A stretch of 64,000 nt of DNA from Microbacterium foliorum (GTDB taxonomy: Bacteria > Actinomycetota > Actinomycetes > Actinomycetales > Microbacteriaceae): contig NZ_CP041040.1 in NCBI RefSeq assembly GCF_006385575.1, positions 1-64,000 on the forward strand, read 5' to 3'. This document shows, in pieces, positions 42,401-55,002 of the stretch; position 1 is the first letter of the stretch, and each line of letters starts with the position of its first letter. The notes below the pieces were generated by a model that saw nothing but the letters and a program-made list of their open reading frames with translations, had not been told where the DNA came from and ran no database searches. The translations under genes and the position numbers were made by a program.

Positions 42401-43360
42401 TCAGCGCCGCACCGGGTCGGAATCGCCGTCGAGGAATCGCTCGAGATCGCGCAGGGTCGGGGCGGCCTCCCAGTCTCCGGGAACCAGGCACGCCATCGCG
42501 CCGCACGCGTTCGCTCGCCGGAGGACCGCGTCGATGTTCTGCCCGTCGAGCAGAGCACTGAGATAGCCGGCGACGAAGGCGTCACCCGCCCCCACGGTGT
42601 CGACCGGGTCGATCGTGAATCCCGGCGCGCCGTTCACGGAACCGGCCGCGTAGACCGACGCTCCGTCGGGCCCCTGCTTCAGCACGGTCGTCGCACACCC
42701 GGCATCCTGCAGTCGTGCAGCAGCCTCGACCGGTGAGGTCCCCGGATACAGGATGGCGAACTCCTCGGCGCCGCCGAAGACGACATCGGCGCGTTCGGCG
42801 ATATCGCGCAGCACCGGGCCCGCGACTCTGGGTGAGGCGAGCGCCGAGCGGTAGTTGATGTCGAAGCTCACCATGGTGCCGGCCGACCGCGCCCTGTCGA
42901 TCGCAGCATGCACGGCGGCCCTGGCCGTCTCGGACAGTAGGGGCGTGATGCCGGTGAGGTGCAGCAGGGAAGCGTCTTCGACCCATCCGTCCGGCAGGTC
43001 CTCGGGCCGCAGCCTGGATCCGGCCGACCCCGCGCGGTAATAGTGCACGGCGGTGGATGCCGCAGAGGGGCGCTCCTTCACCATCAGGCCGGTCGCGGCA
43101 TCCGGGTCGACGATCGCTCGCACATCGACGCCGTCTCCGCGGATCTCCCGCGTGACGCGCTCGCCGAGGGAGTCGTCGCCCACGCGTCCGAGCCACGATG
43201 TCGGGATGCCGAGCCGGGCGAGACCGATCGCGACGTTGCTCTCGGCGCCGCCGATGCCGAACGCCAGAGAGTTCGCGTGCCGCAGCGAGCCGATCTCGGT
43301 CGTGCGCACGAGCGCCATGGTCTCGCCGAGAGTGACGACCGACGGCGACGGCGAGGTCAC
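42401..43360 (-). CDS. kdgK: PfkB-family sugar kinase, probable 2-keto-3-deoxygluconate kinase
   Basis: A 319-residue ribokinase-fold enzyme that would phosphorylate KDG to KDPG. Visible are the N-terminal GGAESNVAIGLARLG, the substrate region YYRAGSAGSRL (common in KDG kinases) and the catalytic DTVGAGDAFVAGYL. GTG at 43360 overlaps the aldolase stop as GTGA, so a longer start is rejected. It is the last gene of the sugar-acid operon, directly after the KDPG aldolase gene. Confidence 0.88.
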   Translation of the reverse strand: MTSPSPSVVTLGETMALVRTTEIGSLRHANSLAFGIGGAESNVAIGLARLGIPTSWLGRVGDDSLGERVTREIRGDGVDVRAIVDPDAATGLMVKERPSAASTAVHYYRAGSAGSRLRPEDLPDGWVEDASLLHLTGITPLLSETARAAVHAAIDRARSAGTMVSFDINYRSALASPRVAGPVLRDIAERADVVFGGAEEFAILYPGTSPVEAAARLQDAGCATTVLKQGPDGASVYAAGSVNGAPGFTIDPVDTVGAGDAFVAGYLSALLDGQNIDAVLRRANACGAMACLVPGDWEAAPTLRDLERFLDGDSDPVRR

Positions 43361-44010
43361 GCGGAGTCCCGGGCGCACACCTCGACGAACGCGGCTGCCC
43401 GCTCGCGCAGTGCGGCGGGATCGCCGTCGTTGAACGCGTCACCGAGCAGCGGTCCGCCCACGCTCACCGCGACCGCACCGGCACGCAGCCAGGCCTCGGC
43501 TCCCGCGAGATCGACGCCGCCGGAGGGCACCGCGACGAGATCGGGGAAGGGGCCGCGCAGGTCTTTGAGGTACGAGGGACCCGCCTGGCCGGCCGGGAAC
43601 ACCTTGACCGCCGACGCGCCCGCAGACCACGAGGCGAACAGCTCGGTCGGCGTGAGTCCGCCCGGAACGATCGGCACACCGGCATCCGTCGCCTGGGTGA
43701 CGAAGTCGGTCGACGTGATCGGCGTGACGATGTAGGCAGCACCCACCTCGATGGCCCGTGCCAGGTCGTCGGTGTTCGTGACGGTGCCGATGCCGAGGTC
43801 GATCGCGTCACCGAACCGCGCGAGCAGCTGGGGGAAGTGCTCGAAGGTGCCGGGAGTGGTCAGCGTGAGCTCGACACTGCGGATGCCGGCGTCGACGAGC
43901 ACGTCGAGTACGGCGTCGTAGTCCTCGGCACGCGTCGCGCGCGCGACGACGATCAGGCGGGAGTCGACCGTGCGCTGAGGCAGGGCGACCCGGCGGACCT
44001 CACCAGTCAT
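43357..44010 (-). CDS. eda: KDPG aldolase
   Basis: A 217-residue class I aldolase that splits KDPG into pyruvate and glyceraldehyde-3-phosphate. Schiff-base Lys lies in AVKVFPAG, and other family signatures are SVELTLTTPG with the catalytic Glu, IGIGTVTN and VPSGGVDL. Two in-frame ATGs exist because of a 15-base tandem duplication; ATG at 44010 is chosen because GGTGAGG lies just before it. ATG at 44025 would add five residues (MTGEV) and overlap manD. Confidence 0.88.
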   Translation of the reverse strand: MTGEVRRVALPQRTVDSRLIVVARATRAEDYDAVLDVLVDAGIRSVELTLTTPGTFEHFPQLLARFGDAIDLGIGTVTNTDDLARAIEVGAAYIVTPITSTDFVTQATDAGVPIVPGGLTPTELFASWSAGASAVKVFPAGQAGPSYLKDLRGPFPDLVAVPSGGVDLAGAEAWLRAGAVAVSVGGPLLGDAFNDGDPAALRERAAAFVEVCARDSA

Positions 44011-44026
44011 GACCTCACCAGTCATG
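43997..44026. repeat. 15-base tandem duplication at the manD-eda junction
   Basis: ACCTCACCAGTCATG occurs twice in a row (43997-44011, 44012-44026). Each copy supplies an ATG and a GGTGAGG-type site on the minus strand; the upstream copy also contains the manD stop codon. Confidence 0.9.
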
Positions 44027-45241
44027 GACGGTCCCGTCGAGCAGGCGGTTCACCGGCAGATAGGCCTTGGTGTACTCGTGGCCGGCTGCGGCATCCTCGT
44101 CGAGGTCGACACCGAGTCCGGGCTTGTCACCGGGGTGCAGGAAGCCCTTGTCGAACGTGAAGGAGGTCTGGAACACCTCGAGCGTCTGCTCGTTGTGCGG
44201 CATGTACTCCTGGATGCCGAAGTTGTGGATCGCGAGGTCGAGGTGCAGGGCGGCGGCCATGCCGACCGGCGAGATGTCGGTCGGACCGTGGATGCCTGAC
44301 TTGATGCCGTAGATCGCGGCGAAGTCGAGCAGCTTCTTCATGGCCGTGATGCCACCGGTGTGGGTGACCGCCGAGCGCACGTAGTCGATCAGACGCTCGG
44401 TGATGAGGGTCTGGTAGTCGAAGACCGAGTTGAAGACCTCGCCGATCGCGAGCGGCGTCGTGGAGTGCTGGCGCACCAGGCGCAGCGCGGTCTGGTCTTC
44501 ACCCGGGGTGCAGTCCTCGAGCCAGAAGAGGTCGTAGGGCTCGATGTCCTTCGCGAAGCGTGCGGCCTCGATCGGCGACATCCGGTGGTGTCCGTCGTGC
44601 AGGATGCGCAGGTCGGTGCCGAAGTCCTCGCGGATCTGCGAGAAGACCCCGGGCATGTGGGTGAGGTAGTTGCGGGTGTCCCACGTCTCCTCGCTCGGGC
44701 GGTCGCCCGAGCGCTTGGCGGGCTCGTAGTCGTAGCGCACGCCGGGCCCGGCGTTCGAGACGCCGTAGATCTGGCCGAGGCCGGGCACGCCGGTCTGCAC
44801 GCGCACGGCGGTGTAGCCGAGCTCTTCGTAGCCGGTGATCGCATTCTTGAGCGCCGCGTAGTCGGTGCCGGAGGCGTGCGCGTAGACGCGGACTCCCTCA
44901 CGGCTGGCGCCGCCGAGCAGCTGGTACAGCGGCATCCCGGCCTTCTTGGCCTTGATGTCCCACAGGGCCATGTCGACCGCGGCGATCGCCGCCATGGTCA
45001 CAGGGCCGCGACGCCAGTACGGGCCGCGGTAAAGGTACTGCCAGGTGTCTTCGATGCGATCCTCGTCGCGGCCGATGAGCATCGAGGCGACGTGGTCGGA
45101 GAGGTACGAGGCGACCGCGAGCTCGCGTCCGTTGAGCGTCGCGTCGCCCAGGCCGACGATGCCGTCGGAGGTCGTGATCTTGAGCGTGACGAAGTTGCGT
45201 CCGGGGCTGGTGATGTTGACGTCGACGATCTCGATGGTCAT
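44015..45241 (-). CDS. manD: D-mannonate dehydratase, enolase superfamily (ManD/RspA)
   Basis: A 408-residue enzyme that dehydrates D-mannonate to 2-keto-3-deoxygluconate. Metal ligands and acid/base residues appear in order: Arg147 and Tyr159 (QIYG), Asp216 and His218 in LHDGHHRM, Glu242 in WLEDCTPGE, Glu268 in IGEVFN. Arg147 and Tyr159 fall at the numbers known for characterised ManD enzymes. RspB and UxuB homologues nearby support sugar-acid use. Some ManD proteins are poor on mannonate or act on gluconate, so the substrate is not certain. Confidence 0.88.
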
Positions 45242-45323
45242 GTCGTTCTCCTGAAGATGCGGGGCGAGGTGCGGGGTGCGGACGTTCGGGCGTCCGCACC
45301 CCTGGTCGTGATGAGCGGCTGGG

Positions 45324-46715
45324 TCAGATCGCGTCGCGCGGGTCCGTCAGGTCGCGACCGGCGACCTCAGGCATCCAGATCGAGGCGATGAGGGCGCTCA
45401 GGGTGAAGATGAAGAGCATGATGATGATCGGGATGAACGAGCCGGTGACGGCCGACACCCACGCGGCGGCGATGACAGGACCCGCGCCGGTCGCGATGAT
45501 GGCGGCGATCTCGCGTGCCATGGCCGTGAACGTGTAGCGGTTGCGGGAGCCGAAGAGCTCGGGCAGCGTGAGGTTCTCGAGCGACGCGAAGCTCATCACC
45601 GCGAGGTTGTGCAGCACGACGTAGCCGATGAAGACCTGCACCGTGACACCGCTGCTGATCATGAGCATCGTCGGGACGATGATGATGAGCGCGACGATCG
45701 ACCAGATCATGTACATGCGCTTGCGGCCGAAGCGGTCGCCGAGCCAGCCCGACAGTGGCACGGTGATGAACGCGACGAGCGACGAGACGATCACGGCGTT
45801 GACGCCGATCGAGCGGTCGAGCAGTAGCACGACGGTGATGTAGCTGATGAGGTAGGTCTGGATCATGCCCGAGTTGCCGGCCTGGCCGAATCGCAGCAGG
45901 AGGGCGATCGAGAACGCCTTCCAGGGCTTGCGGTTCATCGCCTCGAGCGTGCGGATGTCGTTGGTCTCGGTGGCGAGCTGGATCGTCTCCTCACGCGAGA
46001 GGGCCTTGCCGTCGACGACGTCATCGCGCTCTTCGAAGACCGGGGTCTCCTTGAGGTTGAAACGCACCCAGATCGCGAAGAGCATGATGATCGCGCTGCC
46101 GATGAACGGGATGCGCCATGCCCAGTCGATGACCTCCTGCTCGCTGTAGGCGACGAGGAGGATCGCCCAGATGCCCGAGGCGAGCAGGGTTCCGCAGTTG
46201 GTGCCGAGCGCGACGAGCGAGGCGATGATGCCCCGGCGCTTGGCCGGTGCGTACTCGGCGAGCATGACACCCGCGCCCGAGATCTCGGCTCCCGCGCCGA
46301 AGCCCTGCGCGATGCGCAGCAGCACGAGGAGGATCGGCGCGAGCACGCCCACCTGGTTGTACGTCGGCAGGAAGCCGATCAGGGTGGTCGCGAGACCCAT
46401 CAGGAGGATCGTGTAGAACAGCACCTTCGTGCGGCCGGTCTTGTCACCGAGACGCGCGAAGAAGAATGCGCCGACCGGGCGGGCGACGTAGCCGACGCCG
46501 TAGGTGGCCATCGCGGCGACCACGGCGACCGCCGGGTTCTCGGAGGAGAAGAACAGATCGGCGAAGACCAATGCGGCTGCCAGCGAGTAGAGCTGGTAGT
46601 CCATGAACTCCAGCGCCGTGCCGAGCCATCCGGATATGGCCGCGCGCACGAGGTCTTTGACCGACCTCTTCTCGGCGGGATCGGCGGCCGTGGCCGTCGT
46701 CTGCGGTTCTGACAT
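45324..46715 (-). CDS. MFS transporter, metabolite:H+ symporter (MHS) type
   Basis: A 463-residue inner-membrane carrier with 12 predicted segments. The MHS signature is clear: [48 protein letters not shown] and [26 protein letters not shown]. By position between manD and the rspB-like gene it should import the sugar acid used by this operon. Confidence 0.9.
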
Positions 46716-46769
46716 GGGAGGTACTCCTTCGGACCAGGAACAGGGTGGGGTGTCGGGTGTCGGGTGTCG

Positions 46770-47774
46770 CTAGAGGGAGAGCAGGACCTTCGCCGAGGCG
46801 GACGAGTCGCGAGCGAGGTCGAAGGCCTGGACGGCATCGGATGCCGGGAGGACGTGGGAGATGACGGAGTCGAGGGCGTCGGACTCGGCCAGCAGGGCGA
46901 CCGCGTCGTCGATCTCGGTGGAGAAGCGGAAGGCGCCGCGGATCGTGAGCTCCTTGGCGAGCATCGGCGCGAGGTTCACTCCGATGTCGGCGTTCGGGAG
47001 CATTCCGACCTGCACGATCGTGCCGGCGCGGCGAGCGGCGCGGACAGCTGAGGAGAGCGCGACTCCGACGCCCGAGCATTCGAAGACGATGTCGTACGAC
47101 TCGTTCTCGATCGTGTCGCGGCCGACGAGCGACACCTCGGTCGCGCCGAGGGCCTTCGCCCGCTCGAGGGGCTCTTCGCGCACATCGCTGGCGCCGATCA
47201 CCGACGCTCCAGCCTTGACCGCAGCGGCCACGACGAGGAGGCCGATGGGTCCGGCGCCGATCACGAGCACCCGCTTGCCGGTGAAGTCGCCGGCGAGGTT
47301 CACGGCGTGGATGGCGACGGCCAGCGGCTCGGCGAGGGCTGCGCGCTCGAGGGGCAGCGAGGCCGGGAGCACTCGGATCATCTGCTCTTCGACGATCAGC
47401 ATCTCGGATGCTCCGCCCTGACGGTGCGGATTCGCCGCGGCGCTGCCGAAGTAGTCGCCGCCGGGGCGCAGGTGCGGGCGGTCTTCGAGACCGGGCACCT
47501 CAGGGCCGTAGCGTGCGGGGTGCACGGTGACGGGGGTGCCCGGCGCGAGGCGACCGGACGGGTCGAGGTCGACGACACCCGACAGCTCATGACCGGGGGT
47601 CAGCGGCTCCTGGATCGTGTACTCGCCGTTGGCGCCGTGGAAGTAGTAGTGCAGGTCGGATCCGCAGATGCCGACGTAGTTCACGCGAAGGCGCACCTCG
47701 CCGTCGTCGGGGGTCGGAACCTCGCGGTCCTCCCAGCGGATGTCTTCTTTGCCGTGGATGGCGAGAGCCTTCAT
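46770..47774 (-). CDS. Zinc-type alcohol dehydrogenase, RspB / L-gulonate or L-idonate 5-dehydrogenase
   Basis: A 334-residue medium-chain dehydrogenase that probably oxidises C5 of an L-gulonate or L-idonate type acid. Catalytic-zinc residues lie in GICGSDLHYYFHG and TPGHELSG; the Rossmann fold has VLVIGAGPIGLLV. The structural-zinc loop has no cysteine at all (VHPARYGPEVPGLEDRPHL), unlike most of the family. It is translationally coupled to the uxuB-like gene (ATGA) and close to manD, the classic RspA-RspB pairing. Confidence 0.85.
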   Translation of the reverse strand: MKALAIHGKEDIRWEDREVPTPDDGEVRLRVNYVGICGSDLHYYFHGANGEYTIQEPLTPGHELSGVVDLDPSGRLAPGTPVTVHPARYGPEVPGLEDRPHLRPGGDYFGSAAANPHRQGGASEMLIVEEQMIRVLPASLPLERAALAEPLAVAIHAVNLAGDFTGKRVLVIGAGPIGLLVVAAAVKAGASVIGASDVREEPLERAKALGATEVSLVGRDTIENESYDIVFECSGVGVALSSAVRAARRAGTIVQVGMLPNADIGVNLAPMLAKELTIRGAFRFSTEIDDAVALLAESDALDSVISHVLPASDAVQAFDLARDSSASAKVLLSL

Positions 47775-49303
47775 GGCTGCATCTCCTCTGCCCTGGTGAG
47801 TGCTGATGTGCTTGTCTGGGATGCCGAGACGGCATCCCAGATAGCGGCATTGACGCCGCGTCGCTGGATGGTGTCGACGAGTTCGCCGACGCGGGCGATG
47901 AACGCATCCTGCGATCCGAGTTCATCACCGAACAGGTGCAGCTCGGCGATCACGCGCTGCGCGAGCTCCCGACCGTTGCGGGCGGTGGCCGCGTATCCGG
48001 CCAGTCGTTCGCGGGCGCCGTCGGTCATCGCGGCGGCGTGCGGGCCGGGGTCGAAGCCCGGCAGGGGCGCGATGCATGACAGGTATCCGGCGACGGTCAG
48101 AGCGATCAGGTGCGGCATCTCGCCGTTGCGGAGGGCGAGCAGCGCGGGCTCAGGGATGCGCTGACGCAGCTTGACCGAGCCGTCGGTGCCGACCTGGCTC
48201 GTGCGGTGGCCGAGGGCGCTGTTGGCCCAGCGCTCGAACAGCTCGCTCTCGTAGGCGCGGATGTCGACACCGGACGGCACCTCGATCGAGGGCTCGTACT
48301 CGTCGCGCAGCACAGCACGAGCCGCGCTCTCGATGCCGTCGAGTCCGATCGCCTCGGGAATCGTGCCGACTCCGCTGAGAGCGCCGAGGTAGGCGATGAG
48401 CGAGTGCGTGCCGTTGAGCAGCCGCACCTTCATCTGCTCGTAGCGTGCGACCTCGTCGGTGAAGACCGCGCCGCCGGCTTCCCAGGCGGGGCGGCCGCCG
48501 GCGAAACGGTCTTCGATCGCCCACATCGTGAAGGGCTCTGCCGGCACGGGGATGTCGTCGGTGGCGCCGAGCAGCGCGCTCACGCGGGTGCGCAGCTCGG
48601 CCGTGGTCGACGGCACGATGCGGTCGACCATGCTCGAGGGGAACGATACGGAGCGATCGAGGAAGGCCAGCGCGTCGCTGCCTTCGGAGCCGGGCAGCTC
48701 GTGCAGGAACTCGCGCACCAGCTTCTCGGTGTGCTTGCCGTTGGCCGACAGGTTGTCGCAGCTGAGGATCGAGATCGGGGCCCCGCCTGCGGCAGCGCGG
48801 GCCTGCAGCCCGCGGGCGAGCTGGCCGATCGTCGAGCGGGCGGCGCCGCCACGCAGGTCGGCGCGCACCGTGTCGTCGTCGAGATCGAGGCGCTGGGTGG
48901 CGGGGGAGTAGCTGTAGCCGTTCTCGGTGACGGTGAGGGTCACGATGCGGATGCCGGGGTCGGCGATCTGCGCGATCACGCGCTCGGGCTGCTCGGCGCC
49001 GACGAACGCATCGGTGTGCACGCCGGGGATGGTGAGCGAGGTGCTGCCGGGCGAGATGGTCGCGACCGAGTAGAGCATGTCCTGCGCGTGCATCGCGTCG
49101 ACGATCGAGCGCGAGCGGGATGCGACGCCGATGATGCCCCAGTCGCCGCCTGCGGACTGGAGTGCCGCCGCGGTGTAGACCGCCTGGTGCGCGCGGTGGA
49201 AGCTGCCGAGTCCGAGGTGCAGGATGCCTGCGTCGGTCGGGGCGACAAGGGGGGAGGCTGTCGCAGAGGTCGTGCGGCGCAGGGCCGGTGCTGGGATGCT
49301 CAC
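47771..49303 (-). CDS. uxuB: Mannitol dehydrogenase-family oxidoreductase, probable fructuronate reductase
   Basis: A 510-residue polyol dehydrogenase that would reduce D-fructuronate to D-mannonate. The N-terminal Rossmann part shows ILHLGLGSFHRAHQAVYT, and the catalytic region has KVRLLNGTHSLIAYLG with the conserved Lys, Asn and His. GTG at 49303 is preceded by GAAGGAGCC. It is the first gene of the leftward sugar-acid operon and faces the LacI gene across a shared promoter region. Mannitol or another polyol is an alternative substrate, but manD and kdgK favour uronate metabolism. Confidence 0.88.
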   Translation of the reverse strand: MSIPAPALRRTTSATASPLVAPTDAGILHLGLGSFHRAHQAVYTAAALQSAGGDWGIIGVASRSRSIVDAMHAQDMLYSVATISPGSTSLTIPGVHTDAFVGAEQPERVIAQIADPGIRIVTLTVTENGYSYSPATQRLDLDDDTVRADLRGGAARSTIGQLARGLQARAAAGGAPISILSCDNLSANGKHTEKLVREFLHELPGSEGSDALAFLDRSVSFPSSMVDRIVPSTTAELRTRVSALLGATDDIPVPAEPFTMWAIEDRFAGGRPAWEAGGAVFTDEVARYEQMKVRLLNGTHSLIAYLGALSGVGTIPEAIGLDGIESAARAVLRDEYEPSIEVPSGVDIRAYESELFERWANSALGHRTSQVGTDGSVKLRQRIPEPALLALRNGEMPHLIALTVAGYLSCIAPLPGFDPGPHAAAMTDGARERLAGYAATARNGRELAQRVIAELHLFGDELGSQDAFIARVGELVDTIQRRGVNAAIWDAVSASQTSTSALTRAEEMQP

Positions 49304-49369: not shown

Positions 49370-49410
49370 AGTGTGCAGTGTTTGTACAAACTTGTCAACC
49401 TGTTTTACAT
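49370..49410. promoter_or_regulatory. Divergent overlapping promoters with palindromic LacI operator
   Basis: GTTTGTACAAAC at 49380-49391 is a perfect 12-base palindrome. On the minus strand TTGACA (49393-49398) and CACACT (49370-49375) are exactly 17 bases apart with the palindrome in the spacer, for the uxuB operon. On the plus strand TTGTAC (49382-49387) and TTACAT (49405-49410), also 17 apart, would serve lacI. Binding of the LacI protein here would repress both. Confidence 0.7.
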
Positions 49411-49454
49411 CGGGGTCGAGGATCGTAGGATTGCAGCGTGGGTGGGAGGTGAAG

Positions 49455-50417
49455 ATGGCAGCGACGCTGACAGACGTGGCGCGCCGTGCTGGAGTGTCCA
49501 TCGCGACCGCCTCCCGCGCGTTCGGAGAGCCGGATCGTCTCGCGCCGAACACCCTCGGTCGCGTGCTCGAAGCCGCGGGTGAACTCGGCTACGCGACCTC
49601 GCAGTCCGCCACCGCGACCCGCACCTTCGGGGTCGTCGTGCCCGACGTCTCGAACCCTGTCTACGCGACCCTGCTCAAGGCGATCCAGGGGCAGGCCTGG
49701 CATGGCCGCCACCGCATCGTGCTGTTCGACGCCGATGAGGATCTGCGTCGCGAGCGCGAGCAGATCGAGCAGGCACGCAAGCTCGACGGGATGCTGTTGT
49801 GCAGCCCTCGCCTGCCCGACGCCGACGTGCTCGAGCTGGTCGGCGACACGCCCTACGTCGTGGTCAACCGCCAGATCGACGGCGCCCCCTGCGTGCTGAT
49901 GGACACCGAGCACGGGCCTGCTCAGGCGATCGAGCACCTCGCCGCACTCGGGCACACGCACATCGCCTACGCCGCCGGCCCGCGCGGATCGTGGGCCGAC
50001 GTCCGTCGGGCCGACACCGTCGCCCGCGCGTGCGAGCGCCACGGCATCCGCCTGACCGGACTCAGCCACCACGCCGCATCCATCCAGGGTGGCCGCGCGG
50101 CCGCCGCCCCGGCCGCGGCGAGCGGTGCCACGGCCGTTATCGCCTACAACGACCTCGTCGCCCTCGGACTCGAGGCTGGACTGCTCGAGCTCGGCAAGCG
50201 CTGCCCCGCAGACATCAGCATCGTGGGCATCGACGACATCGACCTGGCCGGCGCGGTCACGCCCGCGCTCACGACGGTGCGGATGCCGATCGAACGCAGC
50301 GGTGCGCTCGCCGTGGATCTGCTGCTGCAGGCTATGAGCGGCACGGCGATCGACGACGTCGTGACGCTGGGTTCGCAGCTGATCGTGCGCGCCTCGACCG
50401 CTGCTCCTGCCGCCTGA
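49455..50417 (+). CDS. LacI-family transcriptional regulator of the sugar-acid operon
   Basis: A 320-residue repressor. The HTH and hinge are clear (TLTDVARRAGVSIATASRAFGEPDRLAPNTL), followed by a periplasmic-binding-type effector domain (FGVVVPDVSNPVYATLLKAIQ, and IVGIDDIDLAGAVTPALTTVRMP near the end). ATG at 49455 has GGAGGTGAAG in front. The gene is divergent from the uxuB operon and shares its operator region. The inducer is likely a pathway intermediate. Confidence 0.92.
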   Translation: MAATLTDVARRAGVSIATASRAFGEPDRLAPNTLGRVLEAAGELGYATSQSATATRTFGVVVPDVSNPVYATLLKAIQGQAWHGRHRIVLFDADEDLRREREQIEQARKLDGMLLCSPRLPDADVLELVGDTPYVVVNRQIDGAPCVLMDTEHGPAQAIEHLAALGHTHIAYAAGPRGSWADVRRADTVARACERHGIRLTGLSHHAASIQGGRAAAAPAAASGATAVIAYNDLVALGLEAGLLELGKRCPADISIVGIDDIDLAGAVTPALTTVRMPIERSGALAVDLLLQAMSGTAIDDVVTLGSQLIVRASTAAPAA

Positions 50418-50474
50418 ACCCGGCTGTTCCGATGCTCGCTCAACGACCGGGGGTGAGGCCGCTTCGCGTCCGAG

Positions 50475-50612
50475 GGCGGCTTGGCCGTTGATGACGAGAG
50501 CGAGGAACAGGTGCTCGATGTCTGCGGTGCGGAGCCCGAGTCGGGATGCTTCTTCCATCGCGGCGAGAGACAGAGACTGGCTCGTCTGAGCGACGCGAAG
50601 ACGGGTTGGGCC
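50475..50612 (-). pseudogene. Clp N-terminal-domain gene fragment
   Basis: This frame reads TRLRVAQTSQSLSLAAMEEAS, then RLGLRTADIEHLFLALVINGQAA, a clear Clp-N repeat pattern with GC-rich coding bias. It has no start: its 5' side ends where the DUF2087 gene of the less GC-rich island stops (50613), and after GQAA the similarity stops. It is best explained as a chromosomal gene interrupted by the island. Confidence 0.6.
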
Positions 50613-51101
50613 CTAAGGCCGCCAGTAGACGGACCCATCGCTTTCACGGGCGAAAACTCCGTGCACGATGAGGTAACGGCGAAGCGTGGGGATATCGGTG
50701 GTGTACCGTTCCAAGCGCGCGTTTAGCTCGGGTTCTCCTACGAGTTCCCCCGCTTTGATCGTCTGTTCGCCAATCTTCTGAAGAAGCTCAGTCCGGTCGC
50801 TCCCACGCCGAGGATACTGAGCGATACGCCCATCCGCGTCGATCCAGCGCGCCATTGGATCGGCCGTTCGGTCACTCGACTCGGCCAGGGTGGCGAGCAC
50901 TGCTTTGATCTCAGCGGGACGAAGTGTCAGAGCCTTGCCGCTGCGTGCAACGAGGCCGCTGCGAACCAGGGCGTCCACAGCCTTCCGTTGCCGGGCGAGT
51001 GAAAGCTCATCCGTAGGCCTGCCGTGCAGCACGATGTGTGCGAACACCCGCGCCACCTCGTTGTTCGCAAGACACGCAAGCATCGCCCGTGCATCACTCA
51101 T
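50613..51101 (-). CDS. DUF2087 protein, probable winged-helix regulator
   Basis: A 162-residue protein. Residues 1-75 look like a winged helix (NNEVARVFAHIVLHGRPTDELSLARQRKAVDALVRSGLVARSGKALTLRP in two halves), and the C-terminus has the DUF2087 pattern DIPTLRRYLIVHGVFARESDGSVYWR. ATG at 51101 overlaps the MFS stop (ATGA), so it is the last gene of the YcaO operon. A regulatory role is inferred from the fold. Confidence 0.75.
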   Translation of the reverse strand: MSDARAMLACLANNEVARVFAHIVLHGRPTDELSLARQRKAVDALVRSGLVARSGKALTLRPAEIKAVLATLAESSDRTADPMARWIDADGRIAQYPRRGSDRTELLQKIGEQTIKAGELVGEPELNARLERYTTDIPTLRRYLIVHGVFARESDGSVYWRP

Positions 51102-52243
51102 GATTTCTCCACCATGACAGATCGACGGCGCGATGGCCGCATTTGTCCCACTGCGACGAGGAGGATGCATACCCCATAGAGCATGATCGAACACGTGATT
51201 GCCCATTCGGCGCCCCAGCGATCACCTATGACCATCGTGATCGGAGCGACAACTGCGACGATGAGCGAATCCGCCATGGAAACCAACGATTCCGAGGTCG
51301 CACGGTAGTCGTTGCCGATGCGTTCGTGGAAGAGCCCGGCCACGACGATGGTCTGCAGAATTTGCAAGCCGATGTGAATCAGGAAGGACGCCACGATGAG
51401 CGCGGGCTGGTCGAGGAAAGCAAAAAGAAGCGTCGCGACGGCGTTAAAGGTTGCAAGGAGTATCACGCGACTTGCTGAGACTTTGATGAACCGAAGGAAG
51501 AAGGGCGCAACGATCGACGTGACATTCATCACGAAGAAGCCAATGAAGACGAATCCGAGTGACACCATGTCGAATTTTACCTGCCACAGCAGGAACGGGG
51601 CGACAGCACACGCGTTCGTGACGATGTATATGAGGGTGTACGGGCCCTTGACGACGCCGATCGAATCGTTCAGGTACTGCTTCCAAGGTATTCGTTCCAC
51701 ATGGGTGTCGACGTCCCTGAATGAGAACACCGTGACTGTCGCCAACGTGTAGAGCCCGATGGCACCGAGCCAAATGAACTCCGGCTTGATCTCAAACAAC
51801 CAGAGACCAAGCAGTCCGGCCAGGATCGCGGCAGCCCCTGCGAGATATTCGAGGCGTCCGAACGTGCGCGAGATAGACGTCGCGTCTGCCTTTGGGATCT
51901 GATTGATGATCAAGGCGGTGCTTGTCCCACTCAACGCAGCCACGGCGATCCCGGCGAGCACCTGCGCCGTGATCAGGAGTTCGGGCGATAGGTTCAGGAA
52001 GAACAGCGAGAATGCGGCGATTCGGACGAAGTTGCCGATCTGGAGGGCGGCTTTGTTCGAGTACCGGTCGAAGAGCACGGCGAACGGCAGTTCCGTCACT
52101 GCGACGGCGATGCTGAAGGCGGAGGTCATCAGGCCAACGAAGGCGAGCGAGTAACCGAGCGTCTGAAAATAGACGACATCGACGACGGTGAAGCAAGCGA
52201 CGCCGGCGGCGCTGAGTATGTAGAACGCGTAGATTCTGGTCAT
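51098..52243 (-). CDS. MFS transporter of the YcaO operon
   Basis: A 381-residue carrier with 10-12 predicted membrane segments, starting MTRIYAFYILSAAGVACFTVV. The typical MFS loop after segment 2 reads LFDRYSNKAALQIGNFVRI. Third codon positions are visibly less GC-rich than in flanking genes. It lies 3 bases after the YcaO stop and is coupled to the DUF2087 gene. Export of, or immunity to, the modified peptide is the likely task. Confidence 0.85.
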   Translation of the reverse strand: MTRIYAFYILSAAGVACFTVVDVVYFQTLGYSLAFVGLMTSAFSIAVAVTELPFAVLFDRYSNKAALQIGNFVRIAAFSLFFLNLSPELLITAQVLAGIAVAALSGTSTALIINQIPKADATSISRTFGRLEYLAGAAAILAGLLGLWLFEIKPEFIWLGAIGLYTLATVTVFSFRDVDTHVERIPWKQYLNDSIGVVKGPYTLIYIVTNACAVAPFLLWQVKFDMVSLGFVFIGFFVMNVTSIVAPFFLRFIKVSASRVILLATFNAVATLLFAFLDQPALIVASFLIHIGLQILQTIVVAGLFHERIGNDYRATSESLVSMADSLIVAVVAPITMVIGDRWGAEWAITCSIMLYGVCILLVAVGQMRPSRRRSVMVEKS

Positions 52244-52246
52244 TTC

Positions 52247-53905
52247 TCACATGAAGGTCGGCCCCGCGTACGCGACGCGGGGAGCAGGAGCTGATGGTAG
52301 GGACCTGGCAAATTCTGCGAGTCTGTCCGACGAGGTGAAGTACGTCGCGTCGGTGAGGCACATTCCTGAGGCGAGGACGCGTACCACAGCAAAGCTGGGG
52401 GAGTCCGCGATCACGACCCGATAGAGCGTGATCGACTCTCGCGTGAGGACCTCGATCAGTGAAGAAAGCGCGAAGCGGGCTTCAGTGCGCGGCGCTGTTC
52501 CGGACGGCAGTGCGGCTTCCGCAGAATCCTGAAAGAAGTTCGGCAGCAGATCCATCGCCTCGCCGGTAAACCAGATGTGTCGCATATCTCCGTCGACCGG
52601 ATCGACTTCGATCGCGAGACTCAACGAGTGCAGGATCTGCAGGCACTCGACGAATGCACGGAGGGAGGCCTGTTCCGTGTCCTCGGCTGCGCCGATACCT
52701 CGAGCGGTTCGAGTCTCGTAGTCGTCATCGGCAACGTAAGTGACGTGCACGACCGGGACGTCGAACGGATTAGGAAGCGCGTGGAACGTGAACCGTCCCG
52801 GTATGCTCTGTATGGCGTCTGCGACATAGGGGTGGAGGGCACCGATCGGGAGAGCCGCCAAGCTCTGACCCGTCCGAGCGAAGTACCAGAATGCGTCACG
52901 TTCGATCAGCTCCAACAGCGCCTGCAGTGTCGCGTCCTCGACGTTCGCTCCAGTCGCTACTCCAGTCGTAGTTGTGACAGTAAACCGTGACGCGGTGGAA
53001 TCCCGTGGCATGTACGGGCAGAAGGCGAGATTCGCCGGCACAAACACATCATTACGAAGTGTGAGATTCTCGCCGAGCACCCACTCGACGGCGCGTTCAG
53101 GCGAATATGCCTCGATCCCTGCAGTCGTGTCGTTGGCTGGATAGCCGAACTCGAGGATTGGATCGATCGCCGCCGCGAGCTCGCGTTCGATTCCGACGAC
53201 CACACGCGTGTGGAAAGGGTCGGCCGCGAAGTACCGTTCAAGCCCCTCGCCGAGAAAGCTCGCGAGCGCTTGATCGGTATTCAATCCCTTACCACCCGCG
53301 ACCTCGCATTCGCTCAGGTTGGTCGAGGTTCGGATGAGCCCTTCGATCAGCGTCGCATACGGTTCATCGCCGCCGTTATAGGGATTGCTGACGATGCTGA
53401 CGAAGCCGATCGCCGCTCGATTCGCAGCAACGAAATCAGCTGCGGGAGCAGCTCGACGACCTCCCGTATCAGCTGACTCGGTTCCATGTGTTTGGATCCT
53501 CACAGCCGGGAAAGCAGTCGCGTAGTCCGTCAGCTGACGAGGCGCATCACGGCATTCCATGCAGTCGGGTACAGGAAAGCACACTGACCAACACTGTGGT
53601 CCGTAGATGTCATTTACGGCGGTGGGGATCCCGTGCCGATCAAGCATGCGGAAGATCAGCTCGATCGCTTCATCCTCAAGCAGATCCGGACGATCAAAGT
53701 CTGCATAGTGTTGCTCGAGCAACTGCAGCGACGATCCCAAGCACGCGCGACATCCCCACGTGCGCCCCGCAACAATCGGTGCCCAGACGGAACCCGTTTC
53801 ACCCTGGAAACAGGCGACGACCAAAGAAGAGTCTCGGGGGAATCGTGCAGGGGAGCTCGGGTCTAGACCGAGTTCTGAGCAGATCTCTTGGTAGATGGCT
53901 TCCAT
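52247..53905 (-). CDS. YcaO-domain peptide-modifying enzyme with fused Zn-binding cyclodehydratase segment
   Basis: A 552-residue enzyme. Residues 160-552 are a YcaO domain, which activates backbone amides with ATP: ECEVAGGKGLNTDQALASF, LGEGLERYFA and, further on, TTGVATGANVEDATLQALLELIERDAFW match the YcaO ATP-binding pattern. The first 125 residues resemble the end of the ThiF-like cyclodehydratase domain (WAPIVAGRTWGCRACLGS) and carry two CxxC pairs, C52/C55 and C115/C118, likely binding zinc. The catalytic ThiF core and a leader-binding domain are absent. It follows a 24-residue peptide gene and a hairpin, and precedes an MFS exporter. Azoline, thioamide or amidine formation cannot be told apart. 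Confidence 0.85.
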   Translation of the reverse strand: MEAIYQEICSELGLDPSSPARFPRDSSLVVACFQGETGSVWAPIVAGRTWGCRACLGSSLQLLEQHYADFDRPDLLEDEAIELIFRMLDRHGIPTAVNDIYGPQCWSVCFPVPDCMECRDAPRQLTDYATAFPAVRIQTHGTESADTGGRRAAPAADFVAANRAAIGFVSIVSNPYNGGDEPYATLIEGLIRTSTNLSECEVAGGKGLNTDQALASFLGEGLERYFAADPFHTRVVVGIERELAAAIDPILEFGYPANDTTAGIEAYSPERAVEWVLGENLTLRNDVFVPANLAFCPYMPRDSTASRFTVTTTTGVATGANVEDATLQALLELIERDAFWYFARTGQSLAALPIGALHPYVADAIQSIPGRFTFHALPNPFDVPVVHVTYVADDDYETRTARGIGAAEDTEQASLRAFVECLQILHSLSLAIEVDPVDGDMRHIWFTGEAMDLLPNFFQDSAEAALPSGTAPRTEARFALSSLIEVLTRESITLYRVVIADSPSFAVVRVLASGMCLTDATYFTSSDRLAEFARSLPSAPAPRVAYAGPTFM

Positions 53906-53926
53906 CGTTTGCTACTTCTCCAGACG

Positions 53927-53954
53927 GCGGGGCCGGCCCCATGGCCAGCCCCGC
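53927..53954 (-). terminator. Hairpin between peptide gene and YcaO gene (attenuator/processing stem)
   Basis: On the minus strand GCGGGGCTGGC and GCCGGCCCCGC form an 11-bp stem with one G-T wobble and a 6-base loop, 11 bases after the peptide stop and 21 before the YcaO ATG. No T-run follows, so partial termination or mRNA protection would raise peptide over enzyme output, as in other RiPP operons. Confidence 0.6.
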
Positions 53955-53965
53955 CTCTTGCTACC

Positions 53966-54040
53966 TCACGGGCGGGGCCCGTACTTGCTCTTGCCCTGAC
54001 GTCCAACAAAGACGCGACGGCGCTTCGGTGCGATAAGCAT
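53966..54040 (-). CDS. Candidate 24-residue RiPP precursor peptide
   Basis: A short frame starting MLIAPKRRRVF and ending SKYGPRP, with GGGGG five to nine bases before the ATG. It has eight Lys/Arg and no acidic residue, no Cys and no Thr; Ser18 is the only side chain that could form an azoline. It is the first gene of the island operon and is followed by a hairpin and the YcaO gene, exactly where a precursor belongs. A GTG at 54082 would give a 38-residue form with an N-terminal leader-like part. Expression and modification are inferred. Confidence 0.6.
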   Translation of the reverse strand: MLIAPKRRRVFVGRQGKSKYGPRP

Positions 54041-54132
54041 CAATTCCCCCTTTCGCTCAACACGTGGAGTCGTGAAAATCACGGCCCACCTATCAAGATC
54101 CGCGCTATCGCAAAGCGTGACGCTGAAGAATG

Positions 54133-54146
54133 TAGACTTTCGTCTA
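54133..54146. promoter_or_regulatory. Operator-like palindrome upstream of the YcaO operon
   Basis: TAGAC-TTTC-GTCTA overlaps a minus-strand -10-like TACATT (54129-54134). Its core ACTTTCGT is shared with the palindrome at 33297-33310. A second inverted repeat CCCAG-AAAG-CTGGG lies at 54160-54173. The 335-base gap 54041-54375 otherwise contains the remnant described next. Confidence 0.4.
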
Positions 54147-54175
54147 GATTTTGCTCGCCCCCAGAAAGCTGGGAG

Positions 54176-54375
54176 CTAGGGCAGAATGCCATGGTCGGCG
54201 CGGAGCCCGATGAGTTGCTGGATAAGAACGTCTTCGGCGACTGGATCGAGGTGCTTATCGGTGCCTTCGAGGGATCTGCAGGAAGGCCCTACCGACGTAC
54301 TCAGCGGTGTCTTGGCGCGTACTGAATCCTTGGGTGCAGACTCTTCCGACGAGAGCTGTCGCGAAGCGCCGGATC
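54176..54375 (-). pseudogene. Possible gene remnant at the right flank of the island
   Basis: A minus-strand frame open from the regulator stop to TAG at 54176-54178 ends in GTDKHLDPVAEDVLIQQLIG followed by LRADHGILP. It is protein-like but has no ATG or GTG start, which would fit a truncated 3' end. On the plus strand a 44-codon frame (ATG 54191 to TGA 54325, MVGAEPDELLDKNVFGDW at its start) is equally open. Only one, if any, can be real. Confidence 0.25.
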
Positions 54376-55002
54376 TCAGCGGAGGATGCCCTTCTCGCGC
54401 GCGACCGAGACCGCGGCGGTGCGTGAGCTGACGTCGAGCTTCGAGAAGATGTGCGCGAGGTGCGACTTCACGGTCGTCTCGCTGACGAAGAGCTCGTCAG
54501 CCACCTCGCTGTTCGATCGCCCGGCGGCGACGAGTTCGAGCACCTCGATCTCGCGGCTGCTGAGGCTGACGCGCGGCGCGCGCATGCGATCGAGCAGGCG
54601 GGAGGCAATCACCGGCGCAAGCGCGCTCTCTCCGGCGGCCGCCGCGCGCACGGCGGCGGTCAGCTCGTGCGGTGGGGCGTCTTTCAGCAGATAGCCGCTC
54701 GCACCGGCCTCGACGGCGCCGAGGATGTCGGCATCCGAGTCGTAGTTGGTGAGCACGAGCACATAGGGCGGAGCCTCGAGCGCACGGATGCGTCGCGTCG
54801 CGTCCACACCCGTGGAGGGGGACTGGGAACCGAACTGCAGATCCATCAGCACCACGTCGGGATTCTCGCGCTCGGCGCAGGCGACGGCCTCCTCCGGTGT
54901 GCCTGCCTCGGCGACCACTTCGAGATCCGCTTCGAGACTGAACAGGGCGGTGAGGCCGGCGCGGACGATGGGGTGATCGTCGGCGATGACGAGCCGGATC
55001 AT
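54376..55002 (-). CDS. LuxR/NarL-family response regulator
   Basis: A 208-residue regulator: receiver with D8/D9 and phosphoacceptor D54 (VVLMDLQFG), conserved Lys in YLLKDAPPHE, and LuxR HTH (LSSREIEVLELVAAGRSNSEVADELF). It overlaps the kinase gene by ATGA. It probably controls the divergent ABC exporter at 56348. Confidence 0.92.
   Translation of the reverse strand: MIRLVIADDHPIVRAGLTALFSLEADLEVVAEAGTPEEAVACAERENPDVVLMDLQFGSQSPSTGVDATRRIRALEAPPYVLVLTNYDSDADILGAVEAGASGYLLKDAPPHELTAAVRAAAAGESALAPVIASRLLDRMRAPRVSLSSREIEVLELVAAGRSNSEVADELFVSETTVKSHLAHIFSKLDVSSRTAAVSVAREKGILR

Follow-up and report, generated by a model that had tools for sequence, protein, structure and literature searches.

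The gene block

The window, by which we mean the whole 64,000-nucleotide stretch of Microbacterium foliorum DNA analysed here, contains a compact block of genes that all run leftward, from 54040 to 50613. The block opens with a 24-codon gene, which we read as encoding the precursor of a small modified peptide, followed by a hairpin and by the genes for a YcaO enzyme, a protein of the major facilitator superfamily (MFS) and a DUF2087 protein. An earlier sequence-only reading had listed these parts, and all of them were confirmed by direct reading. They are as follows.

54046..54050, minus strand: GGGGG ribosome-binding site of the precursor gene, read directly
53966..54040, minus strand: candidate precursor peptide gene, product MLIAPKRRRVFVGRQGKSKYGPRP, read directly and backed by a motif that precedes YcaO in 15 of 16 family loci
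53922..53958, minus strand: strong RNA hairpin between the precursor and YcaO genes, without a T run after it, from folding
52247..53905, minus strand: YcaO enzyme of 552 residues, with a truncated E1-like N-terminal part and a YcaO domain; C-terminus ending in GPTFM, without PxPxP
53552..53752, minus strand: codons 52–118 of YcaO, holding the set C52xxC55 ... C115xxC118, from the match to the E1-like cysteines of TruD, LynD and MusD
51098..52243, minus strand: predicted MFS exporter (PF07690), with a homologue following YcaO in 15 of 16 family loci
50613..51101, minus strand: DUF2087 protein of 162 residues, probable regulator, from its DUF2087 match; present in 9 of 16 family loci

The three larger products match PF02624 (1.3e-43), PF07690 (3.4e-18) and DUF2087 (4.3e-16), respectively. 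The YcaO and MFS genes lie 3 nt apart. The MFS and DUF2087 genes overlap as ATGA, and the last gene is therefore placed at 50613–51101. At the other end of the block, the GGGGG sits 5 nt before the ATG of the short gene, whose 24-residue product has three Lys, five Arg, a single Ser, and neither Cys nor Thr. A Clp-like look at the start of the frame at 49398–50558 was dropped, as this frame has no Pfam match.

A conserved frame upstream of YcaO

Sixteen distinct loci were compared, made up of the window, nine loci on genome contigs, L040, L074, L075, L077, and two plasmids, Enterococcus faecium pGR17 (L044) and Levilactobacillus brevis pBRV479 (L042). Loci were gathered with the YcaO alignment and each was counted once (L051 repeats L027; L076, L078, L038 and L039 were taken as repeats of L033, L029, L025 and L032). 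A short frame on the same strand, bearing a common motif, lies directly upstream of YcaO in 15 of the 16, the exception being L. brevis; the window peptide is thus more than a chance frame. No rival conserved precursor was found, so that the preset test of the 24-residue frame, its conservation beside homologous YcaO genes, supports it as a conserved precursor. The comparison also lends good support to the central guess of the sequence-only reading, a new minimal precursor beside YcaO.

The core motif of the family is small-small-X-Gln-[S/A/G]-(Lys-x-x or Gly-Gly)-Tyr, represented in the window by (F)VG-RQGKSKYGP. All 15 precursors have the Gln, the Tyr, a Ser, Ala or Gly after the Gln, and two small residues before X (V/A/G, then G/A/T); X is Arg in 12 of them. 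Examples are FVG-RQGKSKYGPRP in the window, FAG-RQSKQSYGPK in Salinibacterium, YAG-RQAKNSYGPTK in Helcobacillus, FVG-RQAKNSYGPSQ in Curtobacterium, LVA-PQSKNAYSGGTN in Actinomyces, IGA-FQSKNSYGFVK in the Bathymodiolus symbiont and PVA-SQSKSSYTGN in Enterococcus. The motif is doubled in Rothia (GAT-RQAGGY-AT-RQAGGY-NAR) and in Leifsonia, and the L077 core, VAT-RQSKNSYASN, bridges both core types. In the precursor genes of L031 and L032 the TRQAGGY unit stands twice in tandem, a hint, from sequence, that one precursor may give two products or carry two modifications.

Translated in six frames, the 16 family loci (301,632 bases) yield 16 matches to the full motif, each at the precursor place. It is absent from 31 stretches around other YcaOs (129,634 bases, mostly about 1.5 kb per side; two repeat others, L004/L050 and L037/L041 being same-place pairs) and from 20 Markov replicates. 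The motif was taken from most of these same loci, and the count therefore shows specificity; prediction is shown by L074, L075 and L077, which were obtained after the motif had been fixed and which all carry a motif-bearing frame. A relaxed form of the motif gave one further, out-of-frame match, within the MFS region of L077.

None of the 15 precursors contains Cys, and classical thiazole formation is excluded, as had been claimed from the window alone. The description of the peptide as free of both Cys and Thr has to be narrowed, since several relatives carry Thr. Nor is high basic charge a family trait, the precursors of L032, L033 and L040 having only three Lys and Arg residues each. Precursor starts were of our own choosing, and the alignment row of L025 begins one codon late. 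As these starts were read, leaders in the family span 13–20 residues; a 38-residue form of the window peptide is less likely than the 24-residue form because its leader would measure 27. No NCBIfam model matched any of the 12 precursors tested.

A ribosomal precursor gene adjoining a peptide-modifying enzyme is the pairing that clusters for ribosomally synthesized and post-translationally modified peptides (RiPPs) require. The family loci are scattered over three phyla, in Actinomycetota, Enterococcus and a Bathymodiolus symbiont, and since the frame is conserved across them, the short gene very probably encodes the substrate of a small modified peptide. From these sequence comparisons we put the probability that it is a YcaO-modified RiPP precursor at roughly 0.8.

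Distribution and the insertion site

The G+C content is 57–63% at about 50500–54500 and 67–72% on both sides. In G001, the nearest relative compared, the same two neighbours are found 620 bases apart: a kinase/response-regulator pair at 85% identity and, at 88%, a gene of LacI-type appearance as judged by eye. The gap between them (L063 2890–3509) holds a Phd/YefM–ParE toxin–antitoxin pair in place of the island, and the spot may thus be a variable insertion site. Among the four relatives, both flanks matched in G001 only, and the other three matched on the regulator side alone.

Across overlapping genome sets, members of the YcaO family turned up in 1 of 366 genomes at the level of the genus, 4 of 398 at that of the family (a fifth match being a different YcaO), 2 of 396 at that of the order (where four weaker matches are different YcaOs), 5 of 66 in the genus of G766, 2 of 245 in the family of G1048 and 1 of 266 at the level of the phylum. 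The nearest named relatives of the window protein are from Microbacterium (70% and 65% identical). No member was found in the viral contigs and phage records searched, and a second protein search with the YcaO alignment added none among the best 7994 candidates by shared words. The block is best explained as a minimal RiPP gene cluster that arrived by horizontal transfer.

Several matches were set aside. Those opened from Helicobacter pylori and a Rhizobium plasmid belong to other systems, with SagB dehydrogenases. L041/L037 (a 911-residue frame) and four matches at 1e-31 to 1e-35 (frames of 890–1088 residues) were taken as other YcaOs; the motif is absent from the stretches examined. A family YcaO 31% identical to that of the window (P0013), from a Bifidobacterium longum metagenome-assembled genome, lies in a cluster of 53 member sequences.

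In the YcaO tree, the five RQAGGY loci group in a single clade (100/100) despite belonging to two families. Branching among the GRQ-type loci is poorly fixed and several end branches are long; L029, being broken, was omitted, only one of the three outgroups planned could be used, and the rows named P are gapped. Between the precursor genes of L026 and L029, five synonymous differences and no replacements were counted over nine core codons.

Hairpin, export and regulation

The window hairpin (37 nt) folds at −35.1 kcal/mol (z = −4.4), and none of 200 shuffles was as good. Hairpins were counted as strong when they ranked in the top 4% against 150 local background stretches; by this measure, 13 of 15 loci have one no more than 110 nt beyond the stop of the precursor gene. 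In ten of these (the window, L026, L027, L028, L031, L032, L033, L040, L075 and L077) the hairpin reaches z ≤ −3.5 against dinucleotide shuffles. The stem sequences differ between loci. The hairpin would probably keep the precursor mRNA in excess.

A short frame followed by a strong hairpin could also act as an attenuator or as an arrest peptide for the control of YcaO and MFS, with the YcaO substrate lying elsewhere; the YcaO of Escherichia coli acts on a ribosomal protein (PMC13063428). In favour of this reading, the window peptide closes with KYGPRP immediately ahead of its stop. However, two loci carry the motif twice; in L033, L075 and L040 its Tyr is 20, 21 and 17 residues away from the stop; and the GGAG before the window YcaO gene is outside the hairpin. 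We regard a regulatory leader peptide as very improbable and retain the RiPP precursor.

The MFS homologue follows YcaO in every locus except L029, where it was not found; in L. brevis it stands behind an arginase gene. The DUF2087 gene is present in the window, L025, L026, L027, L029, L040, L044, L074 and L075, upstream of the precursor gene in L040 and L075, and could be missed in L030 and L077, whose sequences end soon after the MFS gene. The E. faecium protein is an 85-residue DUF2087 domain only. A structure model of the DUF2087 protein made without an alignment was poor (pLDDT 49) and was not used. In our reading the MFS protein would export the product and the DUF2087 protein would probably regulate the system.

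The YcaO enzyme

The window protein has both the YcaO domain and, in the predicted structure, the YcaO fold. Its best profile match in the PDB is MusD (7u58, 5.9e-32), followed by TruD (1.4e-29) and LynD (1.5e-27). The structure-aligned ranges start at residue 140 of MusD, 146–179 of LynD and 210 of TruD, leaving the leader-binding part, assigned by the domain limits of LynD, without an aligned counterpart. Judged from the model, this part of LynD/TruD-type enzymes appears to have been lost from the window protein. The set C52xxC55 ... C115xxC118 is equivalent to the E1-like cysteines of TruD, LynD and MusD (the match of the first pair is not significant alone), and the second, cysteine half of the E1-like domain seems to be retained, fused to YcaO. 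The sequence-only reading had stated that neither a ThiF-like nor a TfuA partner is present. For TfuA (PF07812) this agrees with its absence from all five family genomes searched, a control having matched in Methanosarcina acetivorans; for the E1-like partner it needs correction, given the fused cysteine half.

The high rank of MusD raises the possibility of ATP-dependent cleavage, in which YcaO would hydrolyse a peptide bond, as reported for MusD, and release a plain short peptide. The block has no separate protease gene, and the two small residues before X-Gln resemble a cut site. The near-equal scores of TruD and LynD point to a general likeness, however, and the activity of MusD is cited here from the title of its PDB entry. 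We consider cleavage improbable.

LynD and TruD, azoline-type heterocyclases, being among the closest solved structures, an oxazoline has also to be weighed. It would arise by cyclodehydration of any available core Ser or Thr, such as the Ser of RQGKSKY or the Thr just before RQAGGY. In 7 of 21 complete C-termini, that of the window among them, a lone PxP stands some ten residues from the end; this fits an oxazoline and counts against the chemistry we favour. The motif that papers link to azoline formation is PxPxP (PxP in another), and it is found in none of the 21. (Of the 22 alignment rows, P0006 is fragmentary; L026 and P0012 represent one gene, and so do L074 and P0010.) In the precursors, no Ser or Thr position is common to all 15, and five of them have neither residue from X to Tyr. 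Without Cys and without a common Ser/Thr position, the family is not accounted for by one azoline reaction, and oxazoline formation seems quite unlikely to us.

A thioamide, for which YcaO would put sulfur in place of the oxygen of a backbone carbonyl close to the Gln or Tyr, needs no Ser, Thr or Cys. Three broad NCBIfam models, and no others, matched the 22 YcaO rows, with the window protein below each cut-off. One of these, TIGR03266 (the YcaO for thioamidation of McrA glycine), matches 22 of 22 rows and is the second-best match of the window protein; the azoline-type TIGR03604 outscores it, both being below their cut-offs. The missing TfuA and the lack of a sulfur-carrier gene in the block also speak against a thioamide. 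The lack of TfuA is not decisive, since E. coli YcaO thioamidates uL16 without it (PMC13063428); we think a thioamide unlikely.

A proposed mechanism and its closest relatives

The best reading is that this YcaO makes a non-azoline backbone change. We propose that the 24-residue peptide consists of a short leader (MLIAPKRRRVFVG) and the core RQGKSKYGPRP, which the enzyme would recognise together without the usual leader-binding domain. YcaO would activate a backbone amide of the core with ATP. Cleavage of the leader behind the small residue would then free the amine of X to attack the Gln carbonyl and give an amidine. An amidine of some type has, in our judgement, a little less than an even chance; an N-terminal X-Gln amidine, drawn by analogy from klebsazolicin, is the form we favour, as a guess and at well below even odds.

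The core of klebsazolicin begins Ser-Gln-Ser, and its leader protease is TldD/E. If the core starts at X, Gln takes position 2 in 15 of 15 precursors, followed by a small residue as in klebsazolicin, and the Enterococcus core would likewise begin Ser-Gln-Ser. The klebsazolicin amidine joins Ser1 and Gln2 and is made by the YcaO KlpD after leader cleavage (PMC7136475). That peptide also has three thiazoles and an oxazole, made with separate partner and dehydrogenase genes (PMC7136475); the window block has neither gene, and its core has no Cys.

Streptamidine (AmiA–AmiD) resembles our system in having a standalone-type YcaO in Actinomycetota, precursors not rich in Ser, Thr or Cys with a motif present one to three times in each, and an azole-free product (PMC8442711). 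Its amidine site is His1-Leu2-Ser3, and its precursors carry an ALV motif seen in none of our 15. The main type of its cluster has AmiB, a hydrolase, a dehydrogenase, and ABC and FecBCDE-like transporters, all of them absent from the window block; the C-terminus of its YcaO is proline-rich, unlike that of the window (PMC8442711). ItfB of Bacteroides, a YcaO that takes nitrogen from ammonia to turn a backbone amide at Thr-Phe into an amidine (PMC10352776, PMC11002830), is akin to the chemistry favoured here in type. Its fusion to an Fe-S-recognition domain, its radical SAM enzyme, its transporter with a C39 peptidase and the C-terminal end of its Ile-Thr-Phe motif have no equivalent in the window block. 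In comparison with the cyanobactin heterocyclases LynD and TruD and with MusD, the window enzyme lacks a leader-binding counterpart and PxPxP, and its substrates share no Cys, Ser or Thr.

Several observations weigh against this picture. As to the chemistry, TldD/E family members were found in none of five genomes (a control matched in 10 of 14), and the klebsazolicin route of leader removal is thus not open here; the block itself contains no leader peptidase gene. Core position 3 is Ser, Ala or Gly, so that Ser3, thought to matter in klebsazolicin and streptamidine (PMC8442711), is not conserved. Because the streptamidine YcaO has a proline-rich C-terminus, the lack of PxPxP does not in itself indicate an amidine. 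As to the precursor, that of the window is the most deviant, alone in having Gly after the Gln and Lys before the Tyr, and against each of four other GRQ cores compared it shows three replacements and one to three synonymous differences over nine codons. No precursor was found in L. brevis, where the relaxed motif gave 12 matches on the whole plasmid, none judged to be a precursor. L029 and L030 have no hairpin by the background or the shuffle test, and the hairpins of L025, L044 and L074 are not better than dinucleotide shuffles (z = −0.6, −1.3 and −1.0).

Variant loci

In pGR17 of E. faecium (L044/L052, record 42406–48869), the YcaO–MFS–DUF2087 block extends into two LanB-like proteins (PF14028, 1.8e-6; PF04738, 1.4e-5, below its cut-off) and a 339-residue protein without a Pfam match. 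The L. brevis plasmid (record 29596–33772) carries YcaO, an arginase-family protein (2.4e-37) and MFS between IS30 elements; the arginase match suggests conversion of Arg to ornithine in a peptide. With these extra enzymes, relatives of the window system may decorate their peptide further. A motif match beside the L. brevis YcaO was rejected, as it lies on the opposite strand and recurs at two other IS30 copies. In Curtobacterium sp. VKM Ac-1376 (L029/L078), the genes for the precursor and the DUF2087 protein look intact, but YcaO is frameshifted and no MFS gene turned up; judged by its sequence, this locus is a decaying copy.

Implications

Full-text literature searches gave no description of the precursor family among the matches listed, and six core strings had no match. 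The streptamidine study mined standalone actinobacterial YcaOs, and an unnamed cluster there may include the window family (PMC8442711). Tentatively, and by analogy, the family could be an undescribed RiPP class of Actinomycetota, Bacillota and Gammaproteobacteria, with three or four genes, a YcaO without a leader-binding domain, and an X-Gln-small...Tyr core of about ten residues bearing an N-terminal or macrocyclic amidine; by likeness to klebsazolicin, its products may target the ribosome.

With a 24-residue substrate, one enzyme and one exporter, this is about the smallest YcaO peptide system imaginable. Its invariant Gln and Tyr, without a shared Cys, Ser or Thr, suggest a chemistry other than ordinary azoline formation, and one may ask how a YcaO locates its substrate when, as seems the case here, the leader-binding part is missing. 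Peptides this short are missed by annotation: the E. faecium pGR17 record has no entry for the precursor MKLVKIKEIKVKKPVASQSKSSYTGN and labels the YcaO a hypothetical protein.

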